Shown in pieces: positions 23,754 to 31,185 of a DNA stretch of 64,000 nucleotides. The DNA is from Mesaphorura yosii (taxonomy: Eukaryota > Arthropoda > Collembola > Poduromorpha > Tullbergiidae). Below the pieces are notes generated by a model. It saw only the letters and a program-made list of their open reading frames with translations. It was not told the origin of the DNA and did not search any database. Each line of letters begins with the position of its first letter. Positions within the stretch are counted from its first letter, which is position 1. The stretch spans positions 19,776-83,775 of the forward strand of contig WIXG01000338.1 in assembly GCA_009869945.1 (NCBI GenBank), read 5' to 3'. The position numbers and the translations under genes are program-made.

Positions 23754-24612
23754 GAGCGGTCTTCTGCGCTGCGCAGACATTACAAAAAAGAGGAGACGAG
23801 AATGCTCTAGGCGATGGCGATACCATGTAAAGGACGTCCATGATATTTGCATTGCGTGTTGGTGTTGTGCTTATTGCAAAGCAGCTGCAGTGCTAAAGCT
23901 CGCAGCACGTCCGTCCCACCACACAATTGATAAGGAAGGAGAAAGGTGACTGTAGTTCACCAGCCCAGTGCTGCCTCTGGTGTGGAGGCCTAAAGTCCCA
24001 TGTCGTCGCTGGCTCGCCTGCCTGCTTTATCAGCAAATTTTGTAACGATTATAACCCGTGTGTGCAACCTCATTGCGTTTGGATTCGAGTCCTACGTGAG
24101 CGTAGCGCACACAGCACTTTCGTGAGCAGCGAAAGCGAAACACTTTCTCGGAAAAAGGCTGACGTCCGGTTTTGGTATTGATTAATGTCATATCTATATT
24201 CGGAACAGCTTCTTGTAGTTTGATTAACGTCAATCAATGCTTAAGCTGTGTGGCTAAGAATTTAGAAGCAATTAAGTTCAATAGAATAGCAATGAATGTG
24301 AAGATGTGATCGAAGGCTCTAGACAGACAAGAGTTCATTGCTTCTCCTTGGTGAAATTGTCTGACTTAACTGACAAGATTTGGAATCGACGCCCTTTATC
24401 GCAGCATATTTCACATCCTGAGCTGGTCGATAAGAAGGGTGAAGAGTAAACCTCCGTGGCCAGCCAAATCCCTTGCTGGTCCGGATCGGAGGAGAAGACT
24501 TCTGGACTTCCTCCTCCGACCAATCAGTTGATCGTTAGTTTGGGAGTCGTCGTCGTGTAGAATTTGGTCAGGTTGAAATGAAATTGAAGCCAACAAACGA
24601 AGAACCAGCACG

Positions 24613-26827
24613 ATGAGCAAATCCCTTAAGTGTGAAGGACCAAATTCCAGCACCGACGCAGCGTCGACAGAGTATGATGAATGGGCAAGAAAACTCATCA
24701 ATCGTCCCATCCCGCAAATTGGAGTACCCTCAATACATCAGATCGGCCAGATTCAGCAAGTTGTGGACGGAGTTCCTGCGAACGAAGGGTAAGCCAATCG
24801 CTTGCGTACTTGCATTAGTTAGAGCAGTTAAATCTCAAGATATATTTACGCAGATACGACCTAGACAGTGCAATTGGCCGATTTGCATGGGAGACGATTG
24901 CACCTGGAAAGCATATCCCTACGTTATATCGCTACGGCCAACAATTTTGTGCCATTCGAATGTTGGAGGGTTCGATATTGAATGATTTGTTGCAAAAGAT
25001 ACCCCAAGACATCTACGACTCGGCGAAACTCACTAGCTACTTTGTAAGTTTAAAGTTCGTTATTGATGTTGACGCCTTTGCGTTGTGGGGTTTGTAGGCT
25101 CAGAACTAACAGACCTAATTCTAATTGCAGGTGACGAATGCTGAAGCTAAATTGCTAAACTACATAAACACCTGGCATTGTGAGGGGAAGTATGGCACGA
25201 AAAACTTCACTGTACAGGATCTTATTGTGACGTTGGAAGAAACCAAGAAACTGTACGAGTACATTAACTTTGCCTTCAATGTCCTATCAAATAACGGAAG
25301 GAATCCGGACAACGATTTCAGCAAATGTGGATTTGTTCGAGTTAATAATGATTCCCTAATTCCATACACCGTCCTCAAAGACGGTGACAAATCTGTTCCT
25401 CTCTTCTACTTTGAAGGCCAGACTGAAATTCTCAAAGAAAAGGCCGAGGTAAGAGTTTCATGGACGCCCAAAACTGAAAGCACCTGCTTTGCCTTTCTGA
25501 CAGTCGTGTCGTTTACTGTAGCCCTTGACCGGATGGGAGCTGTCCTATCTGAAGATATGTTGCAAGGTCCAAGGTGTTCGAAAAGACCTGATTGCTGGTG
25601 ATAGCCTGTTAATTGTAAAGTTGGCACATCTACGCTCTTACTTCCCGAAACGGTCTACTTTCGAAGAGAACTGCTGGCCTCCGCCAAAGGGAAAGTCTTT
25701 ACTACCGAAGCAGAATACGATCTCATCAACATCGTCGAATACTTCATCAGCAGGATACTACAACAATATCAGCATGAACGGGCCCAAAATTCCCAATCGT
25801 GTTGTGTCCAATGATAATTTTCAGAATCGGTCTGTCGTGAGAACGTTGACGGCCCCGATGGCGACAATGGGTGTCAGTGCAACTAATTCTACGATAAGCA
25901 GGACACTACCGTCAAAGAATTCCAGTTACACCACAACCTCTCACTCACACAGTGTTAGTGTACCAAATAACAGCCACTATGTGCGGACAAATGGAAACAC
26001 GACGTCTAGCGCTACGGTCACGAATAATTCACCCGCAAACGTTAATAATAATACCCTTGCTCACGGCTTAAATACGGGTACTTTCACCACTTCAAACGGT
26101 TTCACGATCCAGGTCGCACCTCCCTCGATGCGAGGCAGTCCTGAACTGAGAAAGTTAAGGGTCCCAAATCCGCCTGCCGATTTCTCAAGACTAACCACAA
26201 TCCTGGAGCACATTGATGGTGGCAAAGTAGGAGCTTATAATGTCATAACTGTAAGTGTGTTTATTTGAGACTAGTCTAAATTCTTCGTGTCAATTGCGAT
26301 TCATGATGTCATGTATTCTTGCTTTTGACAGATGCTCATTGAATGCGATACCAGAGTTCATTGCATAAACAACAAGCCCTTCAAGTCAGATGAATTCCTC
26401 ATCGTGCTCCAAGACTTAATGAGCAAATTTTTCCCCAATGTGAGCATTTATCCGACTGCGGTCAGTGTACTCAAATCCATCGGCTTACATACGTTCCTAC
26501 CCAACAGGTATGTTTGGGATTCACTTGCATTTTGTCTGATGTTATTTATCTGTTCTACATCTGCCTTGTTGAATTTTGTTCAGTTCACAAATTGCTGCCT
26601 TAAACAATTACGGATTCCAAATCAGCCGTGGCTGGGAGGCACCTTTAGTGAAAGCGACGGAGGCAATAGCGCTTCTCCCACGGATTAAACTCCTCTTGAC
26701 GCCCAAGCCAACACCAAGCCCAAGAATGACGAGTGCTCCTTACAACAACATAATTCGCAACAGTACCGCCAATTCCTCAAATAATCGCTACTACTATTCA
26801 AATTCAACACTGAATCACGCCCGATGA
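24613..26827 (+). CDS. Conserved-looking protein of unknown function (Asn/Ser/Thr-rich middle)
   Basis: Six exons: 24613-24788, 24854-25043, 25131-25448, 25522-26250, 26332-26507 and 26584-26827; the phases close exactly to 610 residues. The first 290 residues look like a folded domain (QIGVPSIHQIGQIQQVVDG, RFAWETIAPGKHIPTLYRYG, LTGWELSYLKICCKVQGVRK). A low-complexity Asn/Ser/Thr-rich part of about 150 residues follows, then a second ordered part (HCINNKPFKSDEFLIVLQDL, GFQISRGWEAPLV). No signal peptide or membrane segment is visible. I recognise no named domain, although the first part looks like a conserved animal protein. The stop at 26825 is UGA followed by C, and the same frame stays open for another 117 codons (separate entry). 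A promoter-like CCAAT array lies 0.9-1.2 kb upstream. Confidence 0.75.
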
Positions 26828-27178
26828 CCATCAGCCTTGGCCTTGTCTAACAGTTTAATAACAAATCACAGTTCGAAGTCAGCTTTTAATCATTATCATG
26901 TGCCTGTCATTTCTCCAAGCTATTTTAGTTCTCTGTGCACTCCGCCACCGACTCCGACTCCGCCTCCTTTATCACATGCATCTAGTCCACTTGGAGTTGG
27001 TGGTGGTGAACTGGGTCTGGGCTCCGGTTTTGGTGTTGGCTTGTCAATGCCATCGAATCTTCCACTGAATCCAGCAGTATTATCACTATCACCAGGAACA
27101 GTTTTGCCACCGATGACTGCTCCGACAAGTGGATTGAGCTCCGCACTTCAGTTTCAGCCTACATTTCATCCCTTCTAA
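26828..27178 (+). other. In-frame extension behind a UGA-C stop: candidate stop-codon readthrough region
   Basis: After the TGA at 26825-26827 the same reading frame continues for 116 sense codons to a TAA at 27176-27178. The extension has protein-like composition: a Pro/Thr block (CTPPPTPTPPPLSH), a Gly/Leu block (GVGGGELGLGSGFGVGL) and a Pro/Leu/Ser-rich end finishing in LQFQPTFHPF. It is biased like a disordered coding tail, not like a UTR. UGA followed by C is the leakiest stop context known in insects. Alternatives are a splice that skips the TGA, a selenocysteine codon (no SECIS element seen), or a recent nonsense mutation. Confidence 0.5.
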
Positions 27179-27918
27179 CTACACCAGGGCCTGCGTTCCG
27201 TTCCGGTGTCAGTGTTTAACACATGCACAGGCCAGTCACCCCCTTTGAAATCAGAATCAAATCAGTCTGCTCAAGGACACTGTGAGACTGCGGCTGAGGC
27301 AAGTTTTGGGATTGCGTTGAACCTGATCTCTTTGTGAACGGCTTGTCTTTTTAGTAATCATGAATTAGTAAATTGAATTGTGATAGAACTGTTAAAAGTG
27401 GCCCAATTTTATAAACTTTATCTTGTTCTTGTCTATTTTAAGCTGTGGTCAGGCCAAGGCACGTTCAGAACGTCGCTTCGGATTAATTCCCAAGCATTTG
27501 TTGTTTTAAGTCATGTGAATACATGTTCAAAACCCACTATGAATTATGTTTTCAGTTATCAGTCGACAGTAATCAGTTTGTCGTGACTGGATCTGGATCT
27601 TACTTTTATATTCGTGGTTATCGAAGTTATGTGAAATACTAGCGATAGTTTATCCAAATGGAATAAAAGTCAATGACGAATCACGAATAGGACTTAACAC
27701 AAAGGAAGTTCTGATGAGCTCGCATAATTTATTTACTCAGTTTCAGTGATTTTAAATTGCTTAGCAAACATAAGAATATCAACGTATAAAGAAATGCATG
27801 AGTTATTAAGATAAAATCCTAGAAGTATATAAGAGGAAAAAGATAAAGATATCTTTAATCTGCTTCACGTTCAGTACATTGCAAGATCCGCATCAATATT
27901 CAAGTCTTAAATCTTCAT

Positions 27919-28770
27919 TCAGGTCTCTTTCTTCACTTGGGCTCGTCCCAGCGTTTCCCAAATCTTCGTTTTCTCCGCGTCCCATTCGGCTTTCATCGCG
28001 TGCAGTTTCGATGCAAACTCCTCTCGAAGATTTGCCACCACCATGTTGTGATTTCGAGTCGTCTTTTCAAGCTCCAGAGCGAATTGTGCTTCCATTTCTT
28101 TTATTCTTGCTTCAGTGACGACACCAGGAGGCGGCTGTTGTGATTTGAGGTAATTAAATCTAGGAGCAGAGGACACGGGTGCCGTTGCAGGATTCGTGTT
28201 TGGAGTTGGAGTCATTCCAACACCGACCGCTGCTGGAATTGTTACTCCCGGCGGCACCGGCGAGAGAAGCATTGTTGCTTGGACTGGCGTAACTGGAGCG
28301 GGGTTGTTTGGAACGACGGGGGCGGGAGGAGCTTTCGGTTGTCTTCCACGCTTTTTGGGCGTTGTTACAGGCTGAACTGTCGGCGCTGGCTGGACTTTCT
28401 TTGTTGGAGAGTTTGAGGCAGACTTTGCCTTTGCCGTAGTAATATCAGCCGCTTCCGCTGCCTTGAACGTCGGTTTGCGGCCACGCTTTTTAGGTTCGCT
28501 GTTGTTGTTCTTGGAGGGTCGACCGCGCTTTCTTTTTGGACTCTCCTCCACGCCGTCGCTGGGATCAAAATCTGGGTCTTCGTTATTATCCTGGTAAGTT
28601 AACATATCAGTCTTCTCATACGGTTCGTCGTCCTCATCTTCGACACTAACGTGAATCATGTCATCCGTCAGATGAAACTGTTGCACGGGAGGGCTCCTGT
28701 ACTTCTTCCCGCTTTTTGTACCATTAGCTTTCGGTTGCGGTGCCGTATACGCTGATTTTTTAGTCCTCAT
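27919..28770 (-). CDS. AT-hook DNA-binding protein
   Basis: One coding exon, 283 residues. Three AT-hook motifs follow one another at about residues 79-150: KRKRGRPSK, KKRGRKPT and KKRGRQPK, each with the Gly-Arg-Pro or Gly-Arg-Lys/Gln core that inserts into the minor groove of AT-rich DNA. An acidic patch (SVEDEDDEPYEK) comes before them and a Pro/Ala/Val-rich linker after. The last 60 residues form a charged coiled coil (EARIKEMEAQFALELEK to LHAMKAEWDAEK). The ATG follows an acceptor-like TTTAATTTCAG, so a non-coding first exon is likely. Nuclear chromatin or transcription role is inferred from the hooks. No catalytic domain is present. It is divergent with the kinase gene, about 0.5 kb away. 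Confidence 0.75.
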   Translation of the reverse strand: MRTKKSAYTAPQPKANGTKSGKKYRSPPVQQFHLTDDMIHVSVEDEDDEPYEKTDMLTYQDNNEDPDFDPSDGVEESPKRKRGRPSKNNNSEPKKRGRKPTFKAAEAADITTAKAKSASNSPTKKVQPAPTVQPVTTPKKRGRQPKAPPAPVVPNNPAPVTPVQATMLLSPVPPGVTIPAAVGVGMTPTPNTNPATAPVSSAPRFNYLKSQQPPPGVVTEARIKEMEAQFALELEKTTRNHNMVVANLREEFASKLHAMKAEWDAEKTKIWETLGRAQVKKET

Positions 28771-29288
28771 GACCTGAAATTAAACATCGGCATCATTAAA
28801 ACTGCACAATTAGTCAAAAAGGCGAACTGGGTTAATTATACATTCGCTATCGGAGCTTGAGTTATTCAGTTCTAAACTTACTTACGGCCTAGCACCACCG
28901 CCTTCTCCTGGGGTTTCGCGTATCTGCTGATATGGCGTCACTTTAGTTGGAGCCAGATAATTTGGCGTTATTTTGTTAGCCTTTTTCGTACCACAGAGTG
29001 ACACATATTATGTGTTCGCGTTCGATGTTGGAGTGAGGCTCAAGAATCTCGAAGTACGATTTTGCCGACTTCGTTACCAGTCTCTGATATTTTATACGAG
29101 AACCCTGTATGTTTTGGTCCAGCGTACCCGTACACTGAACCCTTTTACCCAAAGGGAATCTTGCAAGGAAAAGCGTTAAAATTTTGAGCGCAAAACAAAG
29201 TGGAGCTCACGACATTCTGTAAACTCACGCACAAACTCCCGAAGATTGCATCATTTTCACTTTCGGAAATATCAACTCCAGTACCGCA
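28771..29288. other. Bidirectional promoter region
   Basis: 0.5 kb between the divergent AT-hook (-) and kinase (+) start codons. It must hold both promoters and the non-coding first exon of the AT-hook gene. A donor-like sequence on the minus strand near 28880-28890 fits that exon's end. Confidence 0.4.
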
Positions 29289-31185
29289 ATGGATAGAGAT
29301 TTTGTGGCCCATCTTCAAAGTCTGGAGACAATAAAGGACTTTGACTTTGGTAAGTCAGGTGTCACTTGTCATTGTACCATCGTGTAGTAGTTCTGCTCTG
29401 GCTGACACCGAGATTAGTTAGGCAGATGAGATGACGATTTGGCTTTTAACATATACATTATACCACAGGAATTGGCGGTTCCCCGAAGGAATTCAATCGA
29501 GTTTCGGCAATCACAACAGATGTGACTGACTCCGAAGTGAACTTCATTACATGGCTATTGCTCGAGAAGGAATTCGGAGTCAACGGGGCTGCATTCAGGG
29601 AAGATGATGAAGATCATTCGCAATCTGATTCCGACACAACTGATACATCGAGATCCGTTGCTCATGGCAGCAGAATCCAGACAGATGGCGGCCGACCTAA
29701 TCGCACTCTTAGTAGGAGGGAGCAAGCTTTGAAATGTTAGTAAGAAATGCAGTTAAGTCAATAGTCAATAAAAGGAAAGTTAACTGAAGTATTGGGGTTT
29801 CTGCCTCCAGATGCTGAGACCCTCCTGTCAGCTGTTGGTGTTAATATTCCCTTTCGATGTCTGAGCCCAGAACAGCGACACGATCTTTTCAAATTATTTT
29901 CCTCATCCAGCAATCTTTTGATTCAAGAGAAGTTCAGGTGCAGTTTGTGTTTTGATGTTTTGAACGTTTTGTCCGTTGTGACTTGTACGGAAAACTCCCA
30001 ACCGTATGTTTAACTCACAATCATTTTCCCTGCTTGAATTTTAGCTCTATAACGGACCTGTACAGTGCCCTGCGTCGACGGTCAAGGTTCCGAGAGGAGT
30101 TCAGTGTGACTGATCGATTAGGTTCTGGGAGTTTCGGCACAGTGTATTCAGTGAGGAAACGCACGGGAGGATTCAGAAATACGCTTGCAGTGAAGAAAGT
30201 TACCCTGACGCTTGACCTTGTTGAACTCATTCCAATGATTTTAAATGAATCATCGATCATGAAGGCAGTCACAGGGAATGAAAACGTTGTAAAATATTAT
30301 GACTCTTGGCTTGCGATGGAATTCGCCGATGCTGAGGAGGAACTTCTGGAGGCTGGCGACGCCTGCAGCTTTGGTTCCTTTTCAGACGCCACCGGGTTAT
30401 CAGAACAATCAGAAATATCAGCAGCGGCAGTGGAGCATGAAGAGGGAAATTACGTGTTTTACTTATTAATGGAACAGTGCTGGATAAGTTTAAGACAATG
30501 GAAAACCAAGTTCCCAGACGAGGTCCTCTCTCCTGAACAATTGCATCAAATTGCTGCGGGATTAATCAACGGAATTGATTGGATTCACAGTAAAGGGTAT
30601 TTGCATCTGGATATCAACGTATGTTCGCCCATCAAATTTCAAATTCTACCAGCAAGGAGGCTACTTTAATCTAAACATTCCATTTTTTAGCCGAAGAACA
30701 TCCTCTGGAAGAACGAAACCCGATCGTCGGTGGTGATCAGTGATTTTGGGTTGGCAGTGATTGGGCCCACATTCGGAGAACGAGTGGGAACATGCCCTTT
30801 CGTTCCACCCGAAAAAATCCTAACTGCAAAGGTGATGCGTCATACGATTGTCACATTTCGTACATTTTAGTTACTCGTGCTCACGCATGGCATTTCACTT
30901 TGTAGAGTGACATTTACTCGCTGGGCGTGTCACTTTTTGAGATAAGTCATCAGTTCGCGACGACGTCGGAATTCCTTCACAAATTAGAGGCCCGTGATTT
31001 GGAAACCGGAACAGAATTACTGGTACTTTAATTACACTTTACACTTTCTGAACTTGAGAATTTAATGGATCGGTTCTGAATGCTTGGGTCTACAGAATGA
31101 AATGCTTCCAGCAATGTTAAATCACCGACCTCAGCAACGGCTGTCGGCCACGGAAATTAAGACGAAATTTTTCGCCGGCACGTGA
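29289..31185 (+). CDS. Protein kinase of the eIF2-alpha-kinase (PEK/HRI-like) type, catalytic Lys replaced
   Basis: Seven exons: 29289-29349, 29469-29735, 29811-29937, 30045-30618, 30691-30831, 30906-31022 and 31096-31185, giving 458 residues. After a 150-residue N-terminal region comes a kinase domain: Gly loop GSGSFGTVY, ATP-binding Lys 201 (LAVKKV), then VVKYYDSWLA followed by an acidic insert of about 55 residues. A Tyr-Tyr-x-Ser-Trp strand plus insert at this place is typical of eIF2-alpha kinases (HRI, PERK, GCN2). The Mg-binding Asp 361 is kept (SDFGLAV). The catalytic loop reads HLDINPKN instead of HRDLKPxN, so the usual Lys two residues after the catalytic Asp 341 is Asn 343. The activation segment ends in VPPEK rather than APE. 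It could be a weak kinase or a pseudokinase. A Wee1/Myt1 relation is the alternative, since those share His-Leu/Met-Asp. Confidence 0.72.

Follow-up and report, generated by a model that had tools for sequence, protein, structure and literature searches.

Candidate readthrough of a UGA-C stop codon in a springtail gene encoding a Dachshund-homology-like domain

Stop codon readthrough in Pancrustacea and the springtail locus

Translation past a stop codon into a conserved second reading frame is well known in Pancrustacea. In the sections of the comparative study by Jungreis et al. (2016, PMC5100048) drawn on here, readthrough is reported for at least 5% of stop codons in mosquito and at least 6% in fly. 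Counted over all lengths, there are at least 614 readthrough regions in mosquito and 960 in fly, with at least 302 and 460, respectively, having a length of 10 codons or more. The same sections describe the process as abundant in Daphnia and in most of the insects that were tested, though not in a centipede, and place Tribolium and Apis below the readthrough threshold. The candidates from fly and mosquito prefer TGA, followed by C. In fly, the extensions commonly form disordered tails of long regulatory proteins, according to the parts of Pancsa et al. (2016, PMC4999894) used here, and the available portion of another account (PMC13170385) includes fly cases that are promoted by a stem-loop. 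Among titles and the opening lines of abstracts, we found no report of stop codon readthrough in springtails or Collembola, and the word Collembola does not occur in the text of PMC5100048.

The locus described here is located on contig 338 of the 93.0 Mb genome (1127 contigs) of the springtail Mesaphorura yosii, in an analysed stretch of 64,000 nucleotides that we call the window and whose positions are used throughout. It shares with the cases in the consulted sections of PMC5100048 an ancestral stop codon with a long second ORF in the same frame after it, the TGA plus C context, the lack of a selenocysteine signal and, tentatively, a composition-based frame-0 coding signature. However, the calls reported there rest on codon-level conservation among about 20 species, whereas the springtail case comes from one genome. 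With the disordered extensions of Drosophila, as presented in the parts of PMC4999894 used here, the locus has in common a probably regulatory protein and a low-complexity C-terminal tail. Those fly extensions are reported to show little conservation among species, and no homologue was found for the springtail tail, whose disorder is judged from composition alone, unlike that of the Drosophila readthrough set. The Drosophila gene dfr, in the available portion of PMC13170385, likewise has a leaky stop with extra codons after it, but the dfr stop is a UAG aided by a stem-loop, whereas the springtail stop is a UGA with no stable 3ˊ structure.

The host gene and its usual C-terminus

The following features define the gene that precedes the candidate extension.

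24613-26827, forward strand: host gene with six exons and 610 codons plus TGA, forming a continuous frame with homologues in springtails and other arthropods
24613-24788, 24854-25043, 25131-25448, 25522-26250, 26332-26507 and 26584-26827, forward strand: exons of the host gene
26233-26693, forward strand: stretch encoding the Dachshund-homology-like domain (residues ~466-567), interrupted by the intron at 26508-26583
26825-26827, forward strand: UGA stop codon, a candidate for leakiness, in the context CGA UGA C

All five introns have GT..AG boundaries and are 65 to 87 bp long. The best matches to the host protein are springtail proteins from Orchesella cincta (506 bits), O. dallaii (492 bits) and Allacma fusca (459 bits), and these homologues align along the gene model. 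The first match outside the springtails is from a butterfly, at 252 bits. The gene belongs to a family of arthropod proteins to which no Pfam entry is assigned, and it also has an ordered N-terminal part (~67-292, and ~70-295 in the Orchesella model). A search of viral contigs with a springtail homologue yielded no match, as expected.

Structurally, the C-terminal domain of the host protein has the Dachshund-homology fold, as indicated by structural alignments to Dachshund, SKI and Ski-like proteins (1l8r, 1sbx and 3eq5) that span 400-508 of the Orchesella model. Although the fold is shared with these proteins, identity in the structural alignments is only about 15-16%. The host protein has no match to the Pfam model PF02437 at E values up to 1, and weak matches are present in four of 25 homologues, the best with an E value of 0.057. 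Because the PF02437 cut-off is not reached, the domain is described as Dachshund-homology-like and is not assigned to membership of SKI/SNO/DAC. A search of the springtail's own genome for zf-C2H2 domains was uninformative.

The ends of the homologues reveal where proteins of this family normally terminate. The C-termini of the three springtail homologues (...ATRR, ...ASRR and ...LQRR) align with the ...NHAR terminus of the host protein. A basic end motif, such as KRARIS or KRQRTS, follows shortly after the C-terminal domain in 23 of the 35 homologues listed. The remainder consist of two proteins that end after the domain without this motif, the three springtail proteins, and seven that lack the domain or end irregularly. 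None of the 35 carries a tail like the extension. Since the homologue ends coincide and no such tail is found among them, the aligned proteins place the normal terminus of the family at the TGA, with the extension located past the ancestral C-terminus.

These alignments bear on the idea that the TGA is a recent change or an assembly error, such that the tail was or still is part of the main frame. A single substitution would be enough to create it, and a recent nonsense change would leave a coding-like stretch directly after the stop. However, all three springtail homologues terminate at this same position and the basic motif is found at the corresponding end in the majority of the homologues listed, making this explanation very unlikely.

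The open frame behind the UGA

Two further features describe the sequence downstream of the stop codon.

26828-27178, forward strand: extension with 116 sense codons (26828-27175) that continue the last-exon frame, ending in TAA at 27176-27178
27662-27667, forward strand: first AATAAA after the stop, a probable poly(A) signal

The original prediction of a TGA-C stop followed by a long in-frame opening to a TAA holds, and its length of 117 codons is correct if the TAA is counted, there being 116 sense codons. The predicted low-complexity character is likewise confirmed by composition: the extension is rich in CCN and GGT, and the encoded tail is rich in Ser, Pro, Leu and Gly. The poly(A) signal at 27662 would probably place the extension within the transcript. 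The extension is present as a single copy in its own genome, and no homologue was found among 66 candidates from a search of 5.8 billion proteins, although protein searches are blind to any readthrough region that is unannotated in relatives. When residues 500-727, which join the end of the main frame to the extension, served as the query, none of 5881 candidates was a match at an E value of 1; this search also missed the Orchesella homologues and is therefore of little information.

We estimated how often such an opening would arise by chance. From base composition, the probability that 116 codons stay open behind a stop is 0.12%. Order-2 Markov models give 0.05% (trained on 27179-27918), 0.15% (26828-27918), 0.37% (the window) and 0.45% (200 kb of contig C1), and simulations from a model of the non-coding training segments give 0.16% (49 of 30,000). 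With the extension's own composition, the value increases to 2.3%. The biased composition had been proposed to lower the likelihood of chance, but the effect is the reverse, because CCN/GGT-rich sequence is poor in stop codons. Some openings of this length are to be expected across a genome with many thousand genes (a number we assume), but one is unusual for any single given gene.

Coding character was assessed by a classifier of the Z-curve type whose training ORFs, each 200 codons or longer, came from 264 kb of this genome, with the host gene excluded (cross-validated AUC 0.994 for coding versus non-coding windows). In frame 0, the score of the extension is 1.42, whereas the two remaining forward frames give -5.25 and -0.97. 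This value is reached by none of the 528 non-coding segments and, among 372 out-of-frame windows, by about 0.5%, but the non-coding segments had been preselected to lack ORFs of at least 80 codons, which makes them too kind a control. Among 186 true coding windows, 18% score no higher than the extension. Stop-free simulations of non-coding sequence reach 1.42 in 3.4% of 2000 cases, and those with the extension's own composition do so in 6.4%; the likelihood ratio is 2.8. Plain codon-usage log-odds give no coding support for the extension; this measure discriminates poorly, as host exons 4 and 6 are also slightly below zero.

The signature is unevenly distributed. When the extension is split at 26929, a point picked after the acceptor site there was known, the first 34 codons have a likelihood ratio of 0.36 and look non-coding, whereas 26930-27175 has a ratio of 18.8 and looks coding. 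However, the final 34 main-frame codons are equally poor, with a ratio of 0.25, and the weak start of the extension is thus not decisive. The proposal that the extension is coding-like finds some support in its frame-0 signature, but none in its first 34 codons or in codon usage.

These values also weigh on the possibility that the extension is ordinary 3ˊ UTR kept open by its simple CCN/GGT-rich sequence, with any translation amounting to background leakage. The 2.3% chance at the extension's own composition, a composition signal that is moderate given stop-freeness (3.4-6.4%), the non-coding-like first 34 codons, the lack of an extension homologue, and the many genes per genome all speak for such an origin. 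Nevertheless, the opening has a probability of 0.05-0.45% under the other backgrounds, and the fact that one gene combines TGA-C with the frame-0 signature makes chance less likely here. On balance, we consider a chance opening rather unlikely.

The antisense strand was considered as well, where two frames over the extension score 2.39 and 1.82, compared with 1.42 in the sense frame. Positions 26923-27147 of the reverse strand contain a 75-codon open run of coding-like composition. An antisense exon would accommodate this run, which lies in the frame scoring 2.39, but it has no acceptor scoring above 1, and an antisense frame beats the sense frame in 9% of the 186 true coding windows anyway. 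Two other possibilities can be grouped with this one. Selenocysteine insertion at the UGA finds no SECIS family among the Rfam matches: a search of 24500-29000 at E values up to 5 recovered a chance-level snoRNA as its sole match. A start codon inside the extension would have to be one of its two in-frame ATGs, at 27047 and 27113, which are too late to account for the first 73 codons. Taken together, these three explanations are very unlikely.

A splice that avoids the UGA, which the original prediction had named as an outcome to be checked, was examined in the sequence with a divided result. No GT in the last exon has a positive donor score, compared with 6.6 to 10.6 for the five real donors, and therefore no splice can keep the last exon yet skip only the UGA. 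However, an acceptor with compatible phase is present in the extension.

26927-26929, forward strand: rival acceptor, with AG at 26927-26928 and an exon starting at 26929, phase-compatible with the donor of exon 5 at 26508

In this alternative, the exon-5 donor would sometimes be joined to this acceptor, such that 26929-27178 encodes an alternative C-terminus and the UGA is never crossed. All splice scores use generic animal weights that were not trained on this genome. The acceptor scores 2.6, within the range of the five acceptors of the host gene (-1.0 to 4.4), and the exon-5 donor, with a score of 10.6, is the best of its five and fits the acceptor in phase. In addition, the coding signal starts near 26929, and the spliced product would be an open 612-residue protein with the final 82 extension residues as its C-terminus. 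Several observations run counter to such an isoform. Joining 26507 to 26929 would break the Dachshund-homology-like domain at residue 530, and would need an intron of 421 bp where the other host introns are 65-87 bp. The 34 codons between the UGA and the acceptor would be open in the last-exon frame only by chance (0.15 for the length times one third), and the TGA-C context would also be left to chance. Furthermore, 4.4% of 15,617 AG sites score at least as high as this acceptor, and with 17 AG sites listed in the extension, about 0.75 such scores are expected by chance. We regard the alternative splice as unlikely.

Readthrough as the preferred reading

Leaky readthrough of the UGA is the single best reading of the extension, and we give it about an even chance of being correct, with the splice into 26929 and a chance opening accounting for most of the remaining probability. 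The proposal of a readthrough candidate is favoured by the open frame, the TGA-C context, the frame-0 signature, the coincidence of the stop with the normal terminus of the family, the location of the extension before the AATAAA at 27662, and the lack of a last-exon donor. Against it stand the confinement of the coding signal to 26930-27175, the acceptor at 26929, and the absence of a stable stem-loop. UGA-C had been described as a leaky context, and although it is the one preferred among the fly and mosquito candidates, only 25% of the events that the consulted part of a fly ribosome profiling study (PMC3840789) reports occur at UGA. In 264 kb of this genome, TGAC is found at six of 90 rough gene ends.

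Presumably, a small share of ribosomes would decode the UGA as an amino acid and add the 116-residue tail, by near-cognate misreading that is favoured by the UGA-C context and would proceed without a SECIS element or a stem-loop. Folding of five stretches at or after the stop is consistent with the latter, as no structure stands out and 139 to 200 of 200 shuffled sequences fold at least as well. Termination would mostly win, and both a short and a long isoform would be made. The short form would end at the usual end of the family, ~43 residues after the Dachshund-homology-like domain, and the long form would carry a predicted disordered tail rich in Ser, Pro, Leu and Gly, for which no relative was found. 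The translation of this tail, its rate of readthrough, its disorder and its function are what we infer from these features. The main frame lacks the sequence CAGCAGCA, which weighs against this reading.

When the three frames were compared behind 90 putative gene ends from 264 kb, no excess of frame-0 openings was seen, with two, three and zero second ORFs of at least 116 codons in frames 0, 1 and 2, respectively; this set is contaminated with internal exons and far too small. A rough calculation was made from literature values, by which ~3% of stops have readthrough regions of at least 10 codons, and on the assumption that 10% of these reach at least 116 codons. Combined with a chance of 0.16%, a TGA-C ratio of about 5-7 (literature shares versus 6/90) and a composition ratio of 2.8, this would favour readthrough over chance by well above ten to one before any discount. 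The discount must be strong because of the rival splice, the poor coding signal over the first 34 codons and the selection of this gene after the fact, and because abundant readthrough in springtails is itself an assumption.

The more specific proposal, that springtails have programmed UGA-C readthrough by which an undescribed Dachshund-homology-like regulator gains a disordered, lineage-specific tail of 116 residues and with it a two-isoform switch, is tentative and somewhat less probable than leaky readthrough as such. If true, readthrough of the type known from fly and mosquito would reach springtails, a hexapod lineage outside the insects, and this gene would provide one concrete and cheaply testable locus. 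If false, the locus would illustrate that a long opening after TGA-C can be simple sequence or can hide an alternative acceptor.

Other open frames were noted in the vicinity. A convergent single-exon frame at 27919-28770 on the reverse strand has 283 codons from its ATG and encodes basic GRP/RGRK repeats that resemble AT-hooks by eye; no Pfam match was found for this frame. Further downstream, an exon of a protein kinase gene is located at 29956-30669 on the forward strand (Pfam Pkinase, E value 2.5e-12). Elsewhere in the genome, near position 180994 on the forward strand of contig C1 (L028, near base 994), a 108-codon frame ends in TGA-C and is followed by a coding-like opening of 211 codons with a score of 4.1. 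Either an exon-intron effect or a second case of candidate readthrough may account for this opening.
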